Source of the DNA: Adineta ricciae
Taxonomy: Eukaryota; Rotifera; Eurotatoria; Adinetida; Adinetidae
Assembly (NCBI GenBank): GCA_905250025.1
Contig: CAJNOJ010000082.1
Coordinates: 1 to 64,000 of the forward strand
DNA length: 64,000 nucleotides
Direction: 5' to 3'
Shown: positions 49,474 through 64,000 of the stretch, in pieces
Layout of the letters: each line of letters opens with the position of its first letter
Numbering within the stretch: position 1 is the first letter of the stretch
The notes under the pieces: generated by a model
Databases searched by the model: none
Told to the model about the DNA's origin: nothing
What the model saw: only the letters and a program-made list of their open reading frames with translations
Program-made: the position numbers and the translations under genes

Positions 49474-52400
49474 TTACCGTCGATATGATGATTTCTAGAG
49501 GATGAGAAGAAGAAAAAAATAAGCAAAATAACTAATTTCGGAAAAGAAGTCTAGTTTCCTCTTTACCTTGTTTTCGTTCAGCATCATTGGTTCATTATCT
49601 TGTTGATGAGAATTCTCATTTGTGGTCATGGATGAAACTTCTTTGAGAAAGTTTGATGGAACTAATCCTTTGCTACCATTTTCTAATTCACCAAGATAAA
49701 ATCCATCGTCATGAACATTTCCATGCACGTAGATAGTATCACCCGATTGAAATGATAACTCCTCGTCAGGATTAACATTAGGAGAATGTTCCGTTGGATT
49801 GTAATCAAATAAAGCTACCATTTTCTTTATAGATTGTGGTGGAGATTTGGAATTTGTTTGATTCGTACCAGGTGATAGACGTTTTGTTGTTGATGAAGTT
49901 GTCGCACTGGAACTCGATGCCACTTGAAGATCGAAGAATATATTCATGATTCAAGAAGATAATCATTTAACTTACTCGACGACATGCGATTGGAATTGTC
50001 TAAATTCATAGTACCAGCAAGTAAATGTGCTTCTATTTCGGCATCATCGAGTTGAACTTCGGAAATCATGTTACTTGGCACAAAGCCTGTGCGACCATTT
50101 TCAGTTTGCCCAATGTAAAATCCATCGGCATCTTGATCACCATAAATCTATACAGAAAGATTTGTATTGTTGATGAAAATGGTTCTTCATAAAAAGAAAT
50201 TCTTACGCGAATCAATTGTCCCTCTTTGAACGGTAATTCTTCTTCATTATCTTTATTTGGTGACATGGCGTTTGGATCGTAGTCGAAAAGACCGATAAAT
50301 AAACGTGGAGGATTAGTTGTTTTAATCATATGACTATTCATCAATGGGACAGATGTGGTCGATGATGATGCGGCAGGTGTTTGTTCTTTAGCCTTGATAG
50401 GTTTCATTGGTACAGGAGGAGTGATATGTTGTTCTTCTGAAGATGTGGATGTATGACGTGGCGAAGACATTTTCGCTTTGTTCATGTGTGGATTGCCGTT
50501 GATGGGTGCAGCTGTTGTTCGTTTTGTATCAGTATGTTCACGTTGTTTTACCGGTGAAATTGTTGTAGATGCTTTACTTGTTTTTCGTTGAGTACTCGGA
50601 GATTTCATAGGCGTTGGCGCATCTTCTGACTGTTGTTTCATGTAGGCTTCATAACCGAAACGTTGCTGCGGTTGATCGTGTTGGTCACGATTACCATTTT
50701 TCGATTTGGCTGCCGAAGCAATGATGGGACTATTCGGACTCGGAGAATTGATTTCAATTTGCGGGACATCTGTATTGACGGATGCCGCTGAAGGTGCTGC
50801 CGAAGAAGATTTCGATGATGATTGAACCGGCGGTACACCAACGAGCCGCGTGGAAGTTTTATGGATTGGACGGATTTTATCAGGATTAGCTGTTGAAGAT
50901 TTTATCGGTGGTGGTGGTGTATTCATCGACGGTTGATTTACCACCGAGGTCGGTGGTCGAGAAGATGGAATACTCGTCGTCGACGGTGGCGGTGGTGGTG
51001 GCAATGGTTGCGAAAAATCTTGTTGACGAGAAGACTAGAATTAAGCACCAAATTTTCCTCTATATATGTGAAGATGAAGAAAGCGAATCAAACCTTTGAT
51101 GGAGTTTCTGCAATGCTTGATGGCGGCGGCGGCGGGGGCGGTTGAATAGGTGGGGGTGGGGGTGGCTGCACAGGAGGTGGTGGCAGTTGCGCAGGAGGTG
51201 GTGGCGGCGGTGGAAGAATTTGCGGTTCAGGATTTGCTATTTCGTCTTCAGAAGTTGTTCTTAGTGTAATGGAAGAGGATGCTGTCAATGGTACGGACTC
51301 TTTATCAAAGGCTTCTTCACAAACTGGAGGAATCGCAGGTGGTGAAACGTCCATATCCAGCTAATCAGACATACAAAGGTGTAATTGAAAATACCATAAT
51401 CTAGAGTTAATCGTCCTACTTTTTTCAAAATTTCATCGAGATCTATTGGAGCAGAATCGTGTGATTCCCCTTCATTTTCTGTTAATGTGCGAATCGTTAA
51501 GAATCTTCCGTGATGTATTGTACTCATGTTAATGACAGTATGATCATCTATAATCAAAGAAAATGATTTCAGGATTATTTTCTCGTGTTCAATGACTGAC
51601 TTGGTGGATTTGTTATGTCTTGTAATTGTCGACCATCGACAAGAACTCGATAACCACGAGCAGCAGTTGTTGCCGATGTCGGTTGCTCCCAAGAGATAAG
51701 CAGCGTGTTGGATTGTGGACCAGCTATTACTTGTACTCGTTTGGGCGGCTCAATAGATTCGTCTAGAAATCGAAATCAATGAAAATTTCCTTTTCGAAAT
51801 CGAATGAGAAAATGTACCGAATGAAGTAGTGCGAAATTCAATCGAAGCTGCTAGTTGTTGTTGTGTGCTTGCCACATTGTTTGGTTTGGCTTTGATCGTT
51901 ACTTTATGTACCGTGTTCGGTATTAAACCCGATAGTTTAAATCGATAAACTCCTGCTTTTAATGTTTGAACATCAATGTCATTCACGAATAGTTTATGAA
52001 CAATATCGTTCGACGCAGGCCACCAAGAAACGACAGCTGATGTCTGATTAATCCGGTCAACACGTAAATCACTTGGTGCATACGATACGTCATTCATGTT
52101 TCCATTAGAATTTGACATTGCTAACAGTACTGTACATTCTTGATCACGAGATAAGCCACGCTGTGTGATAGTTCGAACACTTATACGATGATGTTTTTCA
52201 TTTAGATTGATGTTTTCAATTAATGCGCGTGTACGTTCATTAGCACGAATAGTTGTGTATAAGGAATGATCAAGCAGTACTTGATAACCAAGTACTTGGA
52301 CTGTGTTTGTGGATGGAGGATTCCAGGCGATTAAGACACTATTGGTGAGATACTTTTCTACACGAAGACTCGTCGGACATGGAACTAAAGAAATACATTT

Positions 52401-55400
52401 AATCGAATCCCATAAATGAAATGGAATTAGCCATTCTTACCATGTTTACCAAAGGAGAGACCATTCGTTGAGGCAGATTCCGAAAGATTTCCGGCCGTTG
52501 CTAGTACTGAAAAGAATAAGAAAGAACGCTCTTACTTTCACAAGACAAAATTTTCTTTTCATAAATATTACATTGCTTCCGAAACATAGCTGGTACATTG
52601 ACAGATGTAGTGACTTCAGAATTTATACTAACGGGTTGATCACGGCGTGGTGATATCGTTCCATCTATGAGAGAAAATGACAGGAGATCAACAAAGAAGC
52701 CGAAAATTTCTCCTACCGGTAAGTGTTCTTCCTATCAGCCGTTGAACTATATGTCGTATAGTTTCAGGTAGGTCATCAGGATTGAGAATTGGCTCAACTA
52801 AATTTGATGGAATCAAACCATATCGACCCTCCAGATTTCTTCCATCATAGAATCCATCCTAAAAACGATAATAGCATTGTATGCGATTCCTATTGTCAAT
52901 TCTCGATTTACTTCATCGACGTCTCCATAAGTCAGATAGTATTCTCCGATACGTAATGGTAGTTCTACTTCCGGATGATCATTAGGTGAGAATTGCAATG
53001 GTTCATAAGAATATTTCGCAACGACGACTTGAGCTGTTTGAGTATTCAGACAGATATTCGATTTGATGTCTTGATTTTCTACTGGATTTTTCGATTGACT
53101 GGCGATCGATTTGACCAATGGTCGTTGTTGAACTGTTGTAGCTAATGAAGCTGGTGGCATAGCTGAGCTCATCATGTTATCTGATGGTGATGTTTGAGAG
53201 TCAACCATAATTGGCAGAGGCCATGGATGAGGAGATGGTATTGGCGAGGAATGATTATTCGAAAGCATAGCCACGGATGACGATGGCAACATTCGGTCAC
53301 GTCTTGCTTTTAAGGATTCAAATTCGAGAAGAATCTCTTCATGTTTCAACGATTGTAATTCAGTTTTTCGTTCGAGATCATGAATTTTTTCCTTAAAAAA
53401 AGACTCAATTAATAGAAGATTGATATGAAGATGATAGATTGAATTACTTCAAGTAGATGAATCGTGTCTTGATGTTCTTGTTTGGTTGCATCGTGCATCT
53501 AGAAGAATTTTCAAGAGACGTAGGGAACAATTGCAAGGAAAACTTCAACTAACTCTTTGAAATTGTTCAAAATCATCTTGTTTTCGTTTCAATTCTATTT
53601 TATTTACTTCATTTTCAACGTTCAATTGCTTTTGTAAATCAGTGCTATCACGTAATGATTTGATTATTGCTTCGAGTTCACGAACTTTCTGGTTAAGCTG
53701 CTCATTTTCACGTCGTTTCATATCACATTCAGACATTTTGGAATCCGAGGTTGTCCGAAATCGCTCACATTCTTGCGTCAACTATTGAATGAAAAGAGAA
53801 AAAGGCATACATAGAGATGCGGATTGATATTGAGCACATTGTATTATTTATTCAAATATTGATTATTTTCTTTTCCTCACGATTTTTTTCTGCATTTTAT
53901 TAATGCATAGAGTCATCACTAACCCGTTCATTAGTATTTGTTGCATTGCTAATTTCGGTGCGCATTTGCGTGTTTAGCATTGAGGCACTCTCGAGTTCTT
54001 TGATCTAGAGGGTAAAGAAAAAATGTATCTTGAGAATAGAAACAAGAGCAGAGAGGGAGGAGTAAAGTGAGAGAGAGAGAGAGAGAGAGAGAGGGAAAGA
54101 CAAAGCCTAACGAGGAAGAAAAAGATGAATGCCATGGTGCAAGTACTTACAAGCCGAGCATTTTCTTTGTTCAGATTTGCTAGTGCCATTGCATGATCGT
54201 CGGATTTTTTCTGCTGTTGACGTTCGAAGAAAGCAAAAAAGAAAAAGAGAATAGAATGAAATAGAGAACAACAAAAAAAAATATGAGGAGAAAAGAGGAT
54301 GGTTTTCTGCATCATACAATTGTGAACAGGTCGATTTCTTTCTCTTCGCCAACAACGAATGAGGCGGGCAACCAGCCAACCAAACAAGCTAGTTCTCTCG
54401 ATTCCGGAAACATGATCTTTATTTCTTTCTCTTGTGCGTCTCACCCTTATTTTCCACCCCTTTAGCACTTTTTGCTTTGGAATATTATATGTATTTAGAA
54501 TGTGGATAGGACTTACGCTGAGTTGAATTTCCGTTTGTAATCGTTCGACTGTTGCCTGGAGATCTTGACAACGATCTTCAACTGCCTGCATAGTTAAAAG
54601 GTCATTTTCTAATTGTGTCTTGCGCAGATCAATTGCTTGAAATGTTTCTCGGTCTTCGTTGTATCGTTGTTTCAACATCTGCAAATCTCGATTTTCAGTC
54701 TGAAGATATTTGATTTCATCGAGCCGTTTTCTCAAGATCGTTTCATGGGATTCTTTCATTTGATTACGTTCTTCGCGTAGCAAATCATTCGCTGCACGTA
54801 ATTGTTCATTATCGAGACGAAGTTTGATGTTCTCATCATTGAGATGTTTGATATCATTTTCATAACTGTTCTGATTATCTTGGTATTTATCTTTCAAATC
54901 GTTGTAGTTTTGTTTTAATTCATTGAATTGATTGAATAAATCATCGTATTGACGACGTTGGTCAGCATGTTCTGCTGATCGCGTTCGATCACGTGTTTCG
55001 ATCTGTGTCAAACGTGCTAATTCACCAAGTAAATGTTCGTTTTGGCTTTTCAATTGCTCGTTTTCATGTGAACAATATTCGAACGTTGATTTTTCATTCT
55101 TATACGTATTTTGTATTTCCACGAAGCGTTCTTCGATCTCTGTTAGATGTGTATACTCATTTTGAAGATGTCTATATGCTTCTTCAAGTTCAGTATATTG
55201 TTGAAGCTATTAGAAGTAAAGAGAAGAAATAAAGAATGAATGAATAGAAGAATAGATACAATTCTATTCTTGCTGATCGAACGTCTTCCAATAGAGAAAA
55301 CGGCTTTAGAAGATTAAAACAAAAAACGAGAAAAAGCGGCTTAAATGAAGTTGACAGTTTTATTCCTGAGGACCTATGATGAGTGACTGGTTATTTTGAT

Positions 55401-58400
55401 GACGACGACGAAGAAAAACAAAATCATGAAAATGAGTATCTTCTAACCTGTAATTTCAGTTTGGTGACATGTTCGTCTTCAGCGCGTGCCAAACGATGTA
55501 CTTCACTTTTTAGCGCTTCATTCGTGTCTTGTAATGCTTGATAATGAAAGGGATCGATGGAAGATGCTGTTGAAGAATTAGTTCTCGAGCGGCCACTTGC
55601 TGTTGTTGTTGTTGTCGGGTATTGTTGCTGTTGTTCCGTGACATTCGTCGTTGTATTCGCTGCTGATGATGGCTAAACAGAAAAGAAACATGCGAATAAC
55701 GAGACACTTTCGATGATGAATTCGCAATGAAATGTCTGTTTGGCAAACCTGTGAGAATGTTTGTTGTAAATTCTGTTTTGATGACTTCACATCGCGAATA
55801 AAACCGGTAAAACGCGGCGATGATGAGCTGGTCATAATTGTTTTCGATAGTTTTTCTTTATTTTATACTTAAGAGAATCAATCTCTACTTTCTCTATTCT
55901 CTAACTAATGCTTTATTCTTGTGGTTCAGCTAAGTTTGATACTACCACATCTACATACATACATACACGCACACGCGAGCGTAAATAACTAATATGATTA
56001 TCTCTGAGAAAGAGAGGAGTCTTCTGCAACCGGTAGTAGTGTGGTAAAAAAATATTCCCGTTTTTTTTTCTTCTTTCTCTTTCTCTCTCTCACTTTCTTT
56101 TGCAACGACAAGAGGAAAAAACTGATGAAGAAAAAGCAAGAAAAAAGTGGGAAACAGAACAGAAACTTAACGAGAGAAATAGTCACAAGAAGCAAAAAAG
56201 AGGAATGTTCATCGACCGAACGAGGCCTCGCTCTAGCGCGCGTGCCGATGAAGATGTCTTTCTATTTGCACTTTTTTCCTTCTTCTCTCTTTCCCACATG
56301 TCTTTCTCACAATACATGGAAGATTAGAATGACTGATGAAAAACAAGAGAAGAGAGAAGAACGAGAATGAAAGAGGGAGAAACTATCGAAGTGATTCGAT
56401 AAATAAGAAAGTTTTCTTTTCAATATGCACATGAAACAAATCTTGTATTCTTTCCTTCCAGTTTTTTTCATCAAGGAAATGGATCGAACAACAATAAGAA
56501 GACGTCTGTCTACCTAAGAGACAGTCAATAATGTGGAAAGAAAGGCAGTTTCCGTCATCTTTCAATGGGATGCTTGAAGACTTACGCCTATATTTGCTAT
56601 CGAGTTCAATGTTGATGTTGTTCTTGAAGCCAAAAGACGTCGTTCAAGATGAAGTTTTTCAATATTTATCTGTCGTAATGCTGTGCCAAGATGATTTGCC
56701 TAGCAAAAGAAAAAACACAAATATTCATAGGAATTACGCGACGATGTTTCCTTGGTTATCAATTACTGTCGATAATTCTTGCAGTTGAATACTTAATTGT
56801 TTGATTTCATCGTTTTTTTTCTTCAATAACTTCTGATATTCGATAGCATCTTTACTGGCTTGCTTTGCCAATGCTCGTTTGATTAATTCTTTATCGTGAT
56901 CTTTCTAAAAAAGATGGCAATCATTATGATTTCAAATCTTTACAGCCGCATTCTCAAACAGTTACTGGTTGCTCCTGTTTAAGCACTTCCAATGTTCGTT
57001 CGAATCGTTTGACACGATCGTGTAATTCAACGAGATCCTGTTGTGAAGACTGTTTTTGTTCATCATGAAGATGTTGATTCTAAGTTTGATAAAGAACAAA
57101 GGAGAATATTAAATTAACTTGGAAAATTCGAACAAAAAAAGAACAAGAAAAGGATGAAAATCCCTGTAGATCATAAGTTGCCGTTCGTCCCTAAACTCAT
57201 CAATAATCGGCACTTGAGAAAAATTCATTTTCACTGAGTGAAAAATCGATCGCACCAAATGAACTAATCCTTTACACGATTTTTACTAAACGCTGCTTCA
57301 TGCGTTTGTATATTTCGAGTAAAAATAGCAAAACGCTGATATGAATTCTAGGAAAGTAGAACAATGCTTATTTAAATAGTACATGCTAGATTAAATAGAA
57401 ATGAAGAGTACAAAAACAACACAGAAATTTCACATCATAACTGAGATGAAAAAAATTCCACAATAGAATTACTGCCTAATCGCTGGATGCTTGTTTTAGA
57501 TAAGCAATTAGATCCTTTCGTTCCTCATCCTTTTTCAAGCCAGCGAAAATCATTTTTGTCCCTGGAATGTATTTCTTTGGATCTTTTAGATAGACCCAAA
57601 GAGTATCACCGCCCCAAGTGATATTCTTGTTTTTGTTAGCATCGCTGTAATTAAAACCAGGAACTGAACCAGTGTGTCGACCAAACAAACCATGTAGATT
57701 TGGCCCTTGTTTATTGCCGCCACCTTTTTCAGCAGTGTGACATTGAGAACATTTCGTTTTGAATAGTTTTGCACCCTTTTCAGGATCACCACCTTCCCAT
57801 TCACCACCGCCTCCACCGCCAGATGCTTCTTTCTTATCCCCACTTTTGTCTCCACCGCCGGATTTGGCATCGCCTCCCTTATCACCGCCTTTGGCACCAC
57901 CTTTATCAGCTCCACCCGAAGCTCCTCCTTTATCACCACTATTCTTGGCGCCACCTTTGTCTCCACCTTTATCAGCACCACCCGATGTTGCTCCACCTGA
58001 TGCTGCTCCACCTTTATCAGCACCACCTGCTTTAGCAGCACCTCCAGCATCGTTTTTATTTGCTTTATTATCTTTGTCAGCTGGTTTTGATCCACCACCA
58101 TCACCATTGCTCGATTTTCCACCACTTTGTTTAGCTTCGTCTCCAGCCATTGCCTTAACGTTGAGTTCACCTAGTTAAGTTATAATTTATGTTTTGAGGA
58201 CGTATGCGTTGTACGCGAATACTTTATGTTTGTCGAGATACGAATGGACGAAAAAAAGAAGAGAAAATAAGGGCGAGGCAAGCATTGTAGAAAAGCGAAA
58301 AAAACGAATGTTGACGAATCGATCAAGGGCATTAACTCAAATGAGTCACACAGGATATCATAGATGAGAGAGGACGTGCTAAGGCAACTTATATATATCA

Positions 58401-59380
58401 TGGCGGATCATGCGCGTATGTACACGTGATAGAATAAAACTCGTCTTTTGTAACTTACCGTAGAAATGACCAAATCAGGATCAGTACTTCGTAATATTTG
58501 TACTGGCGCAATTCTCTTACTGGCAGTTTCATTAATATCAAGAACAGTCTCTGGCACTGACCATGTTTTTAATTGTTCGATGTCATATGATTGTTCAGCG
58601 ATGCGTTGGTCACGTAAAAGTAACTGCCGTTGTAAATAAGAGACAAGATCTTTCTGATCTTCTTTACAGAACACATTGAGTTCATGCTCGTATTGAAGAC
58701 GAAGTTTTGTAATCTTCGCTGATTTATCGAGATCCGATTTGGATTTCGCCTGCAACGAGATAACGTAAATAAAACAGTTTTAAAGAATAATATTAATTTC
58801 ACAAGGTGACATTCTATTTATTTTGAGTACATGTACACTCGCCGAAGGCAAAGAAAAACATATAGAAAACCAGTTTCCTCTCATTTAGGCAATAAAAAAA
58901 GATGAATCATTTTGGCTGGGCATATCTAATAACATATAGACACAAGACAAAATACTTACTTAACAATCAATTAATATCTTGCTTTTCTCGTTGAGTGAAG
59001 AAACTATTTTAGTTAATACTTTCATGCAAACTTACTTTGTATAAAGTTTCCAACTGTGTCTTTGCTTGCTTCAACGCGACTAATTCACGTTTGAGTTTGT
59101 CAATTGTGTTAACTAGAGCTTCACTTGAATCCTCTGGTTCGATGGAATCCGTTTGATCATGAACATTCTGAGCCAATGTGTTGATTGTTGTTTGACGAGA
59201 AGAACCGTGTGATATGGATGAAACAGTCTCCAACTCCGATCCTGATGATGCAGCCGAAGATGGTGAATGTGTTGATAGTGTACAACCAGTGACTGTCTGA
59301 GACGGAGTTAGATGATTGAGAAGCGTTGTGGTCAACGAGCTTGTTTTCATCATCTCAATGATTGATTCGCAATAATTCAA
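49474..59380 (-). CDS. RIMBP: RIM-binding protein (RIM-BP), presynaptic active-zone scaffold
   Basis: Coiled coil, then SH3, three fibronectin III domains and two SH3 domains, the RIM-BP order. Amino-terminal exons: 59380-59036, 58749-58459, 57079-56966, 56904-56767, 56699-56586; [20 protein letters not shown] resembles the TSPOAP1/RIMBP1 amino-terminal helix. The next exons run from ATG 55835 (55835-55749, 55672-55448, 55206-54517 and others) to the stop at 49474, about 1568 aa. SH3-[21 protein letters not shown] and [20 protein letters not shown] (53391-52912, 52858-52717). FN3 domains: 52384-51818, 51762-51601, 51547-51420. A poly-Pro linker is at 51360-51094. SH3-[22 protein letters not shown] (51034-50207, 50147-49976). 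SH3-[23 protein letters not shown] (49922-49567). A 21-nt exon 49494-49474 encodes KSSYRR. RIM-BPs link RIMs to calcium channels. The join between 56586 and 55835 is unresolved, so 55835 may be an internal start. The cytochrome c gene lies in the intron 58458-57080. Confidence 0.9.
54069..54093. repeat. (GA)n microsatellite in a RIM-BP intron
   Basis: A perfect GA repeat of about 25 bp in the intron between the exons ending at 54151 and starting at 54004 on the minus strand; on the transcript it is a (TC)n tract of the intron's pyrimidine-rich 3' half. Confidence 0.85.
55836..56585 (-). other. RIM-BP intron or internal promoter region
   Basis: A 750-bp interval between the amino-terminal coiled-coil exons and the ATG at 55835. 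The upstream donor at 56585 is a strong GTAAGT. No acceptor with the right phase joins it cleanly to the 55835 exon, because frames entering that exon from upstream close at stops. It may contain a promoter for a shorter isoform. The middle, 56040-56110, is T/C-rich. Confidence 0.45.
57476..58150 (-). CDS. Cytochrome c with long Gly/Lys/Asp-rich N-terminal extension
   Basis: A single-exon gene of 224 aa. Residues 117-224 are a complete mitochondrial cytochrome c: heme attachment CSQCH (Cys134, Cys137, His138), [20 protein letters not shown], the Trp in [20 protein letters not shown], and the axial Met200 in [15 protein letters not shown]. It carries electrons from complex III to complex IV in the intermembrane space. 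Residues 1-116 are a low-complexity extension of Gly, Lys, Asp, Ala and Ser with repeating GGADKGG and DKGGA units, starting [20 protein letters not shown]. Normal cytochrome c is about 105 aa with only a few residues before the core. The extension is in frame with no intron or internal Met, so it must be translated if this ATG is used. The gene lies on the same strand inside a RIM-BP intron. An AG (TTAACTAG) lies 20 nt before the ATG. The role of the extension is unknown. Confidence 0.92.
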
Positions 59381-60516
59381 TCATTTTCATACGCAGATAT
59401 GTTGCACATTGACTATACAACGAACAAGAAGAAAGACAAAATGGGAGAGAACACGGTCTGTCAGAAAATTCATTCATATACATGTACTTCGTGGTTGAAT
59501 GAAAAAAAATGCAAGGAAGAACGAAATCGATGGAGGCGAGGAGCGAAGCAATCGATCAGGTCCGATGTTAAAAAGAGAAGCGTAACTGAAAGAAACAGAG
59601 AAAATGAGAGATTCATCTTTGAAACATGTTCCGAAAGGAAGACGACATGATCATGAATAGCTGCTATTTTCAATTCACGCAAAATTATTATAAAAGAAGA
59701 GGAAAAACAAGACTATCCTGGCCTATAATATAGACTAGTTCCTTGAAAGAACAAAAGGAAGCGGCAGGTGGTATATCTTGTGTGTATGGATTCATACAAT
59801 TTATTAAAGAAAATGAAGCCTGATTCGACTAATGACTTGCCAATGAAATATAATAAAGCAAACGATTATAGAACAAATATTAAAACAACACTTGAACAAA
59901 GTTTATTGGTATGACAATAGAAGGTCGTTACCTTGAATCGTCTCTTCTATGAGAAAATCAAGCGGAGGACATAAAATATGTATGTAAATAGATGCGATCA
60001 GTGAAATTGATATCAAATCGAATTTTTTCCTATTTGCCTCATATGCCTATAACGAACTGTAAGTGCCGTTATTTTTCAATCAGAGAATATTGATGTTCAT
60101 TTCTGTAAACCTGAAGCACGACGGTGTGTGTGCAGCGAAATCGAATTTCAAGTGTCATTTGATGCAAGAACAAGCGCTGAACTTGTACGTATGACATACT
60201 TGAAATGAAGTGTCTCAGGAAGGGAAGATTGGAATTTTGAGTAAGAAAAAAAGGCGAACTCACTGATCGGCTTTTTCCTGCTTCGAAGAGAAGAACGTCA
60301 AGCTGTAGACGAAATGTTCACTCGAGTAGAAAATATCCCACACATGATCTACTTTCAAAGTGATTCAATTTTCTTTTTCATTTACTGAAGAAAAACGGCG
60401 CTACTACGCCAACTAATTAAATTGAACTGTCAGATCGAATAAACATTTCGAAAGAAATTGAACACATTACCTACGTCTCTTTTCCTCCCTTTATAAACTC
60501 GGTTTATAATGAAAAT
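59381..60516. other. Spacer between divergent genes
   Basis: 1.1 kb between the RIM-BP start and the small coiled-coil gene on the plus strand, so both promoters should lie here. There is no gene I can support; frames near 59400-59680 are purine-rich simple sequence. Confidence 0.5.
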
Positions 60517-60993
60517 ATGACGGATGGGGTCATTAGACGTTCAATTTCGACTGATAGTAACGCAATCCTGTCAAATTCATCAAGTTTAATCACACGAACA
60601 ACAATACGCGAAGCGAATAACCACCTACAAATGTTGTACATACGTAATCAAGAACTCGAACAATTGACACATGAACAAAAAGAAGAAATTCAACAAAGAA
60701 ATTTCGAATGTAGTAAACTGTATCGAGCTAATCAACTCTTAGAACAACATTGTCAACAATTACAGGCCTTACTTGATGATCGAACTCAACGTTTATATTC
60801 GTACGAACGAAAAGAAGTTCTCTTTCAACAAATAATCGAGTTCAAACCAACTCTCGAATCGTTAGTAAGAATGTTAAATACATTCGAGCAATCGTCGTCA
60901 TTATTACCAGTTTCAATCGATAATAAACCATTAGAGTTCGTCCAAGCAGCGAACAGAATAACTCCTTCCGAGATCTATTTGTCAGATTTGTAG
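60517..60993 (+). CDS. Small coiled-coil protein, intronless, unrecognised
   Basis: One uninterrupted frame of 158 aa starting MTDGVIRRSISTDSNAIL. Residues about 35-90 form a strong coiled coil rich in Glu, Gln and Leu (REANNHLQMLYIRNQELEQL, LLEQHCQQLQALLDDRTQRL). A second helical part (VLFQQIIEFKPTLESLVRML) and a short tail ITPSEIYLSDL follow. It lacks introns in a window where almost every gene is split, so it could be a retrocopy or simply a small gene. A role is not assignable. It sits between two presynaptic scaffold genes, which may be coincidence. Confidence 0.65.
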   Translation: MTDGVIRRSISTDSNAILSNSSSLITRTTIREANNHLQMLYIRNQELEQLTHEQKEEIQQRNFECSKLYRANQLLEQHCQQLQALLDDRTQRLYSYERKEVLFQQIIEFKPTLESLVRMLNTFEQSSSLLPVSIDNKPLEFVQAANRITPSEIYLSDL

Positions 60994-61755
60994 CTCATTT
61001 TTGCAGTAGATTTTTTCCAAATGTTAATATTGTGCATGATAATGAAGAAGTACATGTGGTCTGATTTATTTTTTCTTAATTATATCAAAATACATACAAC
61101 TGAATTGTAAGGTTTCATCATAAATTCTCCTTATATTTGCTTTTAAATTTTAATTTCTTTCACTCGTTCTTTTTTCTTCATTTCCGTACGAAGTGACATT
61201 CCTATTATCTTAAGTTCTTTCTTTTTTTTTATCAATAATATCATTCTGACTGTATATATAACAAAAAAGGACCGCCGAACAAGAAGAAGTACATAATGGA
61301 AGAAAGAGAAAAAAAACTGAAGGCCGAACATGAGTATGCGAGGTTCTAGAGAATTATACTTGAAAAAAAAAACGAAGAACGAAAGAGATACGTTGTTTAT
61401 CCATTTGCTGATCATTGAAAAGTGGAGCTCAGTCAATAAGAATAATAAATACACGAAACACTGTTCACACATTTCGTTGCTCGACAAAATTCAAACAAAA
61501 AAAAAGAAACGACTGTATGTACAAACAAGAGAGAGAGAAAGATTGAATCAACGCATCAGAAGATTTTCAAGACTTTTGTTTTGATTTAACTTGGCGTGCG
61601 CATATGTGTGTGTGTATGTGATAGGTAGACACAAATCAATGTCACATATACTCTTCGAGTTCCAAGAACAAACGAGCTGAGATCGAATACTGAAGGTGAT
61701 GGCAACATTATTTATAAGATAAAAAAAAACGAGAAACAAACAACAAGAAAGACTT
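60994..61755. other. Spacer between convergent genes
   Basis: 762 bp holding the 3' ends of the coiled-coil gene and Mint. It has T-rich then A-rich simple sequence (61160-61230, 61360-61520) and a short TG run near 61605-61620. No gene is seen. Confidence 0.55.
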
Positions 61756-64000
61756 TTATATATAAATTGGATTTTCTTGTCCAGTTAAGAGACGATACAT
61801 TTGGGTCGGCATGGTTTTCATTCGAAGCTAGAAAAGTGTAACGAATATACGGGTTTGCAGATGACAAATCACTTACTTCACCGATGGAATTTGAAAGCAT
61901 ACTAACGATTCTTTCATGTGGGGTTGCGACAACACTATTTCCGTTTATTTCAATAATTCGATGGCCAACGCGGACACCACCACGTTCGGCGATACCGCCG
62001 CGAAGTAAACTACAAATCTAGGAAAGATACAAACACGCTTTATTCTAATCGATGCCGATTATTAAGAACTTACGATGCCGTTCTGTACACTAAAGCCGAG
62101 CTAGATTGAAAAGAAAAAGAAGTTTTTCAACCGAGGTTTCTTGATCGATAGAAATGCTTACCTGATATTTTGTATCTGGTCGACGGATGAGTACTTCAAC
62201 AACTGGTGGACAAGGAACAACGACTAATCGTACAGTTGTTAAATGTTTGACACTCTAAATAGAATTTTTCATCAATCGACCTATTTTTATAGCGAACTGG
62301 AATACTTTAATCTGTGCTTGACAAGAAGACAAAGGTAATCCAACTAAACTAATTCCATTAACCGATATGATCTGATCCCCGATATTCAAATGTCCACCTC
62401 TAATCAAAACAAAAACAGAACACAAATAGAAAACGCGTTTTCTTTCTACAGGATAAACCTACCTTGCCGCTGGTCCAGTTGGCATCATATTGGCGATAAC
62501 AACGGTTGGTAACATCGATCCCCAACCACTTTCAACAATCACTATACCGAGTGGTTCATTTTTTGCTTTAGGAACAATAACCTATAAGATGAAGAAGAAT
62601 TTCATAGAGGATCACGCTATAAGACAAAGCTGATTTACTTCTTTTTGACACTCTTTCTTCGAAAATCGATCGAGTTCTTCGCTGCCAATTTCTTGTTGAT
62701 TTAATACTTCTTGATAATCAATATCACGTGTAAGACTTGGATCATCGATACCATTCGCTTTTAAAAATTCAACATATGCAACTTGAAATGCTTGACCGAT
62801 CGAATGAGCAATTGGTTGAGCCTTTTCAAAATAAAGACATCGATGTTAGTTTGATCGATCAATTTTCTTTTCAACAATAAACTCACTTCTTCGGATTCAA
62901 ACACATGACAAATCATCTTTTGATTGACGGAGACCACACGACGGGTGGCTGTTTCATTTGAATCATCACTTCCATTAACACTATCATCTGTATGTTGAAG
63001 ATAACGGCGTTTAGCCATTAGCACAACAAGATCACCGATATCAGCTAAAATAAACAACAATTCAATGTACGAATCCATATCTTTTCCGTACATACCAATA
63101 TAAGATATTGATCTCAACGAATGATCCATCAGAATATCTTGTAAATCAGTATTTAGGACCATAATTTTCTCGGTCGAAATAAATAGATCGACTTCAACCG
63201 ATGGCTGACTTTCGCCTTGCGGTGCTTTGATTCGGCCAACGGCTTCTTGAGCTTGCATCATTCTTGACGCTTTCGTTGGATTTCCTTCGACGAGTAGTTG
63301 CGTTGAACCGAGATAACGACAACGGAATAGAACGCCTTCGATTAACACTGATGAGTTTTCTGGATGAGCAATTGATTGAGTGAGAGCTAAAACAAAAAAG
63401 ATATTTATCTTCTCATTGACATTGACTTTTCCCACGTATGAAATGCATCACAAACGATAGGGAAATCTTATTGAGTATTGACAAAAGAGAAAGAAAAGAC
63501 GAAAGGAAGTAATTCGTAGTGAATATAAGGAAAACATACTTTCTTGTGATTTCGATTTGCTGGTTGGTTTGGACACAGCCTATTTATCAAAGAAATACAT
63601 ATAGAATAGATTTAGATATATGAAACGTACAGCATCACGAATGGCTTGGTTTTTCGCATTGATACGATGTTCAACGCCGAGCAATTTATCAGTTTCTTCA
63701 TCTGTATCGTAATCTAAACGAAAGATAGGCGAGTTTTCTCGATAGTTTTTCGTATGAAAAGAAATCATAAAATCAAATCATGCTTGTTTTCTACCCACAA
63801 AATCACAGTTAAAATAAAGGGGAGAGGAAAAAAAGAACATGCTACACAAACCCTTTTTTCGCACTGGTTTTGGATTAGTATTTCCCTCATCTAAAGTGTC
63901 TACTGGTTAGTGGTGTTAACCTTGATTCGAAAATGAAGAAAAAGAAGCTATTTTTACCTGCTGGAGCTGTGGATGTTTCTTCTGGTGGAATTTTTGTTCG
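61756..64000 (-). CDS. APBA: Mint/X11/APBA adaptor (LIN-10 family), 5' end outside window
   Basis: Exons inside the window: 64000-63958, 63890-63852, 63713-63631, 63579-63540, 63386-62887, 62821-62639, 62581-62463, 62399-62306, 62254-62162, 62100-62074 (27 nt), 62017-61877 and 61827-61756, all in phase. The PTB domain spans the exons from 63386: [71 protein letters not shown] and [17 protein letters not shown]1 follows ([40 protein letters not shown]). PDZ2 is [20 protein letters not shown] to [12 protein letters not shown]. The C-terminus [18 protein letters not shown] matches the conserved Mint tail, which can fold back on PDZ1. Mints bind the APP tail, Munc18 (through a region not seen here), CASK and calcium channels in neuronal trafficking. 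The amino-terminal part lies beyond the right edge. Confidence 0.95.

Follow-up and report, generated by a model that had tools for sequence, protein, structure and literature searches.

The window analyzed here, a stretch of 64,000 nucleotides from the bdelloid rotifer Adineta ricciae, encodes a cytochrome c behind a long hydrophilic N-terminal tail, and this extended gene is genuine: it encodes an unusual form of a familiar protein and has an ordinary ohnolog elsewhere in the genome. In cytochrome c, a textbook case of conservation, both length and sequence vary very little, and its heme attachment is recognized in the N-terminal part of the molecule. Judging from sequence comparison, we assign a probability of about 0.6 to the reading that the extended protein functions as an electron carrier in mitochondria and keeps a disordered, rapidly evolving tail that was gained after a gene duplication. 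The anatomy and the history of the gene are well supported; translation of the tail, import, heme attachment, tail retention and tail role are what we infer for its product. A tail longer than the core, beside an ordinary ohnolog in one genome, amounts to a natural experiment on how far import and heme attachment tolerate an extension, on the effect of a disordered tail on diffusion and mitochondrial release, and on how duplicated genes diverge in an animal without conventional sex.

A cytochrome c core behind a long N-terminal extension

The gene consists of one open frame whose translation starts MAGDEAKQ (Table 1). The protein has a predicted mass of 22.0 kDa, heme not counted. The initial annotation had described a complete core preceded by a 116-residue extension longer than the core itself, and both descriptions hold. 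The CxxCH motif and the axial Met are present, the Pfam model Cytochrom_C (PF00034) covers residues 124-221 (2.2e-14, 55 bits against a cut-off of 21.3), and residues 121-223 align without gaps to bovine cytochrome c in phmmer (1.1e-47), with 74 of the 103 aligned positions identical; the extension is read directly from the translation and recurs in a second extended copy elsewhere in the genome.

With ordinary animal cytochrome c, represented by the bovine protein (2b4z), the extended protein shares the 103-residue ungapped core, CxxCH, the spacing of the Phe and the axial Met. These features, together with the Cytochrom_C domain, are those of mitochondrial class I cytochromes c, but the length of 224 residues lies far outside the approximately 103-112 residues of that class. 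Among the best 60 of 110 PDB matches, 59 are chains of 103-112 residues, many of them mutants of a few proteins, and we take the remaining one (9q39, 413 residues, named "Peroxidase,Cytochrome c isoform 1") to be an engineered fusion. A literature search returned, among the matches listed, no description of the extended rotifer gene, and none of a natural cytochrome c from any animal that bears a long extension at its N-terminus. The positions K7, K25 and K39 (horse numbering), which we take to be Apaf-1 contacts, read A, G and H in the extended core, and A, G and Q in its ordinary rotifer counterpart. Searching the genome for the NB-ARC domain of Apaf-1 gave no match among 14 candidates under exon-by-exon scoring, which a split gene could escape.

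Table 1. Features of the extended cytochrome c gene and of its host gene (window coordinates)
Feature	Position	Strand	Basis and remarks
Extended cytochrome c CDS, single exon, 224 aa + stop	57476..58150	-	Translation; copies on C93 and C64
N-terminal extension, residues 1-116, Gly/Lys/Asp/Ala-rich	57803..58150	-	Disorder taken from composition
Cytochrome c core, residues 117-224	57479..57802	-	Pfam PF00034 and PDB phmmer; dN/dS 0.044 against C93
CSQCH heme-attachment motif, residues 134-138; Phe130 three residues ahead	57737..57751	-	Translation
Axial Met, residue 200 (Met80 in horse numbering)	57551..57553	-	Ungapped alignment to bovine cytochrome c
Inferred intron of RIM-BP-like gene, holding the cytochrome c gene	57080..58458	-	Splice motifs; same arrangement on C64
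Host exon upstream of the nested gene (...DPDLVIST)	58459..58749	-	67% identical to C64 counterpart, the alignment extending a few residues into the intron
Host exon downstream of the nested gene (NQHLHDEQ...), near boundary only	56957..57079	-	52.5% identical to C64 counterpart

The frame that contains the tail is the only one of the 72 stop-to-stop open reading frames of at least 100 residues in the window that combines a GRAVY below -1 with more than 6% Gly. Tandem Repeats Finder gave three rows within the tail, each a short imperfect array, and a fresh minisatellite or recent tandem-repeat expansion was therefore rejected as an explanation for it. On the strand opposite the tail, 143 codons are open (57747-58178, +) and Pro/Ser/Ala-rich, probably as a by-product of codon composition.

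Copies in the genome and the origin of the tail

When the whole assembly (130,461,839 bases, 1033 contigs) was searched in six frames, three cytochrome c matches emerged, located in the window (C82) and on the contigs C93 and C64. The match on C93 (200795-201460) is a second extended gene, of 222 residues, which is 94% identical over all 224 residues of the window protein; because this second contig encodes the same extended protein, an assembly artefact can be dismissed. The match on C64 (424552-424875) is 83% identical and covers residues 115-222 only. It represents an ordinary cytochrome c of 110 residues that starts MGNEWEGGD, and thus supplies the second, ordinary gene for which the initial annotation had proposed a search.

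Positions 51157-61090 of the window align to C93 in a single piece of 9.9 kb with 94.8% identity. C64 aligns to the window between 51.8 and 62.3 kb in 12 pieces of 70-89% identity, every one of them collinear and in the same orientation, the core included. The dS of the core is 0.18 for C82 and C93 and 1.76 for C93 and C64, and it is saturated for C82 and C64. These values are consistent with the dS given for Adineta ricciae homologs (0.14) and ohnologs (1.27) in the relevant passages of PMC5916493, which place the GC content of the genome at 35.6%; that of the window is 36.1%. With a low-Ks collinear homolog on C93 and a high-Ks collinear ohnolog on C64, the arrangement matches the bdelloid scheme of homologs and ohnologs, and the genes on C82 and C93 are best read from these comparisons as a homolog pair, with the C64 gene as their ohnolog. 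The C64 copy shares with the extended gene the host intron, the collinear neighbors, the core and the N-terminal motif EWEGGD, and it differs in having no tail. A bdelloid quartet allows up to four copies, three of which were located here; the homolog of C64, absent from the search, may be collapsed in the assembly, missing or lost. A published A. ricciae assembly of similar size has 39% duplicated BUSCOs (PMC7943196, in part).

Because nearly all of the best PDB matches are of ordinary length, the short form is most simply taken as ancestral and the tail as a gain on one ohnolog, and we rank loss on the other ohnolog as less likely. When residues 1-115 were searched against the genome, only the two extended genes were matched (two candidates), which speaks weakly against a tail borrowed from another gene, as low-complexity queries search poorly. 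In the collections viral_contigs and genome_contigs, which are not meant for animal genomes, none of 14 and 102 pattern matches, respectively, was confirmed as a relative.

Probable nesting within a RIM-BP-like gene

The inferred host intron begins with the donor GTAAGT after ACG and ends with the acceptor CTTAG before AATCAA, and it spans about 1.4 kb in the window, against about 1.1 kb on C64. The exons that flank the cytochrome c gene appear, from their strand and collinearity, to belong to one minus-strand RIM-BP-like gene with a coiled-coil region and an SH3-like stretch that scores below the Pfam cut-off; further along, the same strand encodes the Pfam domains Ig_RIMBP2 (5e-11) and fn3. 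Since the same host intron holds the gene on C82 and C64, the nesting is older than the duplication. On C93 the acceptor was found and the exact donor string was not, so that the nesting there rests on the unbroken 9.9-kb alignment. Near the host gene are two further stretches conserved on C64, an open reading frame rich in coiled-coil-like sequence (60421-60993, +) and a PDZ-domain stretch (61715-62254, -).

Probable translation of the tail and selection on its sequence

The start codon of the extended gene stands in the context GCAATGG, which agrees with the Kozak-type start rule, and no other in-frame ATG lies between it and the core. None of the donors GTAAG, GTGAG, GTATG and GTAAA occurs in the first 400 nt of the CDS, and its first 420 nt contain no acceptor AG that follows at least 7 pyrimidines in 10. 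The tails of C82 and C93 differ by two indels, each of 3 bp; elsewhere in the 9.9-kb alignment there are 21 more, only one of which (18 bp) has a length divisible by three, and the 308 bp directly upstream of the gene are free of indels. The tail has a dN of 0.058, a dS of 0.232 and a dN/dS of 0.25 between the two copies, and 16.5 of its 31 changes are synonymous, against 9.4-9.7 expected without selection (binomial p 0.010-0.014), a modest excess (p about 0.01) drawn from this one pair of copies. The 3-bp indels, the dN/dS, the lack of an internal ATG and the lack of canonical splice signals together indicate that the tail is probably translated. An unspliced intron or a misread frame was rejected on the frame-keeping indels, the lean towards synonymous change and the missing splice signals. 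The same observations bear on a false start, a caveat that the initial annotation had raised. The tail would then never be made, because translation would begin either from a non-AUG codon where the core starts or on a transcript in which a spliced leader or an exon from upstream is joined near the core. With no in-frame ATG ahead of the core, neither a canonical donor nor a pyrimidine-rich acceptor in the tail, and tail changes that keep the frame and lean synonymous, we regard such a start as very improbable.

The core is the more strongly conserved part, with a dN/dS of 0.044 between C82 and C93 and two nonsynonymous changes among 13, the other 11 being synonymous (binomial p about 1e-4). 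DNA divergence between the two copies is 9.1% in the tail, 4.0% in the core, 5.2% in the adjacent host exon, 5.5% in the upstream noncoding sequence and 9.8% in the downstream noncoding sequence; the tail exceeds the core, the host exon and the upstream noncoding sequence and comes close to the downstream noncoding sequence, and relaxed selection therefore contributes in part. The constraint on the tail between the extended copies appears moderate, with frame, length and composition apparently maintained and the exact sequence loose.

Relaxation raises the question of whether the extended copy is a mere passenger, drifting while the ordinary ohnolog is the essential one and carrying its tail as a tolerated low-complexity expansion without a role. 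The presence of the ordinary copy would allow for this, and the fast evolution of the tail, in both DNA divergence and dN/dS, would agree with it, as would the changes that each core has acquired on its own, seven in the extended core (including G56N and V3P) against four in the ordinary one with the bovine sequence as outgroup, a slight excess that could reflect relaxation. However, the dN/dS of the core and its two nonsynonymous changes in 13 place the extended copy under strong selection, and in both extended copies the tail stays in frame and differs in length by no more than two residues. We consider drift of this kind a possible, though not a probable, account, and prefer a working carrier with a retained tail.

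At 85 identical residues, GC3 is 0.42 in the ordinary copy (L005 4553-4885, the C64 copy) and 0.25 in the extended core, an elevation that is not seen in the controls (EF1A 0.30-0.33, actin-like 0.21-0.26). The codon score was taken as a stand-in for expression level; it fails to distinguish the copies and gives no clear sign of their relative expression.

Composition of the tail

The tail is composed of 36% Gly, 16% Ala, 16% Lys and 12% Asp, carries a net charge of +3 and is restricted to the residues M, A, G, D, E, K, Q, S, N, P and T. Residues 1-116 contain no L, I, V, F, W, Y or C, and hence no transmembrane anchor of the cy/CycM type; Arg is absent as well, and the start Met is the sole large hydrophobic residue. 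On this composition, with no Arg and no hydrophobic stretch, a matrix presequence and a membrane anchor were both rejected as readings of the tail. A GGGGGG stretch connects the tail to the core. AlphaFold2, run from three sequences, gave an uninformative model (mean pLDDT 40.5), and the disorder of the tail is therefore taken from its composition, by which it is probably unstructured.

A tail that is made need not be kept, and a protease of the intermembrane space or the cytosol could cut it off to leave an ordinary mature cytochrome c. The GGGGGG junction, which is likely to be flexible and accessible to proteases, would suit such processing, but the tail, devoid of Arg and, beyond the start Met, of large hydrophobic residues, resembles neither a matrix presequence nor a bipartite sorting signal, and cytochrome c import normally involves no cleavage past the start Met (PMC4158909, in excerpt). 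Removal of the tail thus seems quite unlikely, and retention is the reading that we follow.

The initial annotation had likened the tail to hydrophilins or LEA proteins. Hydrophilins are defined by more than 6% Gly and a hydrophilicity above 1 (PMC7448490, in part), for which we took GRAVY with the sign reversed as the index, and with respect to these numbers the likeness stands, as both the tail (Gly 36%, GRAVY -1.23) and the whole extended protein (Gly 25%, GRAVY -1.10) lie within the definition, while the ordinary C64 copy (Gly 14%, GRAVY -0.79) falls short in hydrophilicity. With respect to the LEA family it does not, as none of the three Pfam matches of the extended protein at E<=1 is a LEA model, and the rotifer tail further differs from hydrophilins and LEA proteins in being fused to a redox protein.

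The resemblance nevertheless suggests a special case of the preferred reading, in which the extended protein would be a desiccation isoform whose hydrophilin tail confers protection on drying, either to the intermembrane space or to the carrier. The contrast in hydrophilicity between the extended and the ordinary protein would favor this, as would the grouping of Adineta ricciae with the desiccating bdelloids in a figure legend of PMC7943196. Against it stand the lack of a LEA family match, the lack of any occurrence of cytochrome c in the main text of a desiccation study of Adineta vaga (PMC10809525), and the weakness of hydrophilin criteria as an argument, since they describe composition and not role and would fit simple spacers too. 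A link between the tail and desiccation is possible, and a dedicated desiccation isoform is unlikely.

Heme attachment, import and a proposed mechanism

Heme lyase recognizes helix 1, a Phe at a fixed spacing and CxxCH (PMC4158909 and PMC8112865, in excerpt). In the extended protein these determinants are internal yet intact, and one heme lyase locus was found in the genome, as two exon matches on C235. The closest arrangements known to us from PMC7474732 (in part), which is also our source for the bacterial proteins, are the cytochromes cy of Rhodobacter, CycM of Bradyrhizobium and the yeast construct Cyc1-MA, which like the extended protein have the core preceded by an N-terminal extension that includes a flexible linker, and which carry a hydrophobic anchor that the rotifer tail lacks. 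In Cyc1-MA, a targeting segment, a transmembrane anchor and a linker of bacterial origin precede yeast Cyc1; the protein was detected by its heme spectra, which were slightly reduced, and respiratory growth was kept, with a greater sensitivity to cell death (PMC7474732, same passages). The anchored protein may bypass the cytochrome c import route, and the precedent is imperfect because the construct is equipped with targeting and membrane segments of its own. Since it respires, a long N-terminal extension is compatible with function, harmlessness aside. The expectation of the initial annotation that the extension would affect heme attachment is weakened by the intact determinants and by this yeast protein (PMC4158909, PMC8112865 and PMC7474732, as excerpted).

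We propose the following course of events. A cytochrome c gene would have come to be nested in the intron of the RIM-BP-like gene before the ancient bdelloid genome duplication, and would have been kept on both duplicates. One ohnolog would have stayed ordinary, at 110 residues, and the other would have gained about 115 disordered residues, rich in Gly, Lys, Asp and Ala, right after the start Met. During import the unstructured tail would pass the TOM pore together with the apoprotein, and heme lyase would recognize the internal segment of helix 1, Phe and CxxCH and attach the heme. The tail would then stay at the N-terminus as a hydrophilic, nearly charge-balanced bristle, and its role would be one of bulk, providing hydration or spacing in the intermembrane space or slowing diffusion or escape; a role of bulk appears the most likely because selection seems to keep frame, length and composition rather than the exact sequence.

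Taken one step further, an ancient asexual lineage might have split cytochrome c into a free ordinary carrier and a tailed carrier that is kept hydrated, localized or retained on drying and rehydration. We put this forward tentatively, as a scenario with the odds well against it; if true, nature would here have fused an electron carrier to a protectant against desiccation.

A further cytochrome c domain in the genome

The Pfam search of the genome found the genes on C82, C93 and C64 and one more domain hit, on C4, which belongs to a different protein. Around 479304-479552 of that contig, an open frame of 584 residues with a bacterial-looking sequence and a GC content of about 50-63% ends in a C-terminal cytochrome c domain (CKTCH). 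This GC-rich stretch directly follows one of 34-38% GC, and the transition reflects either horizontal transfer or an assembly join.
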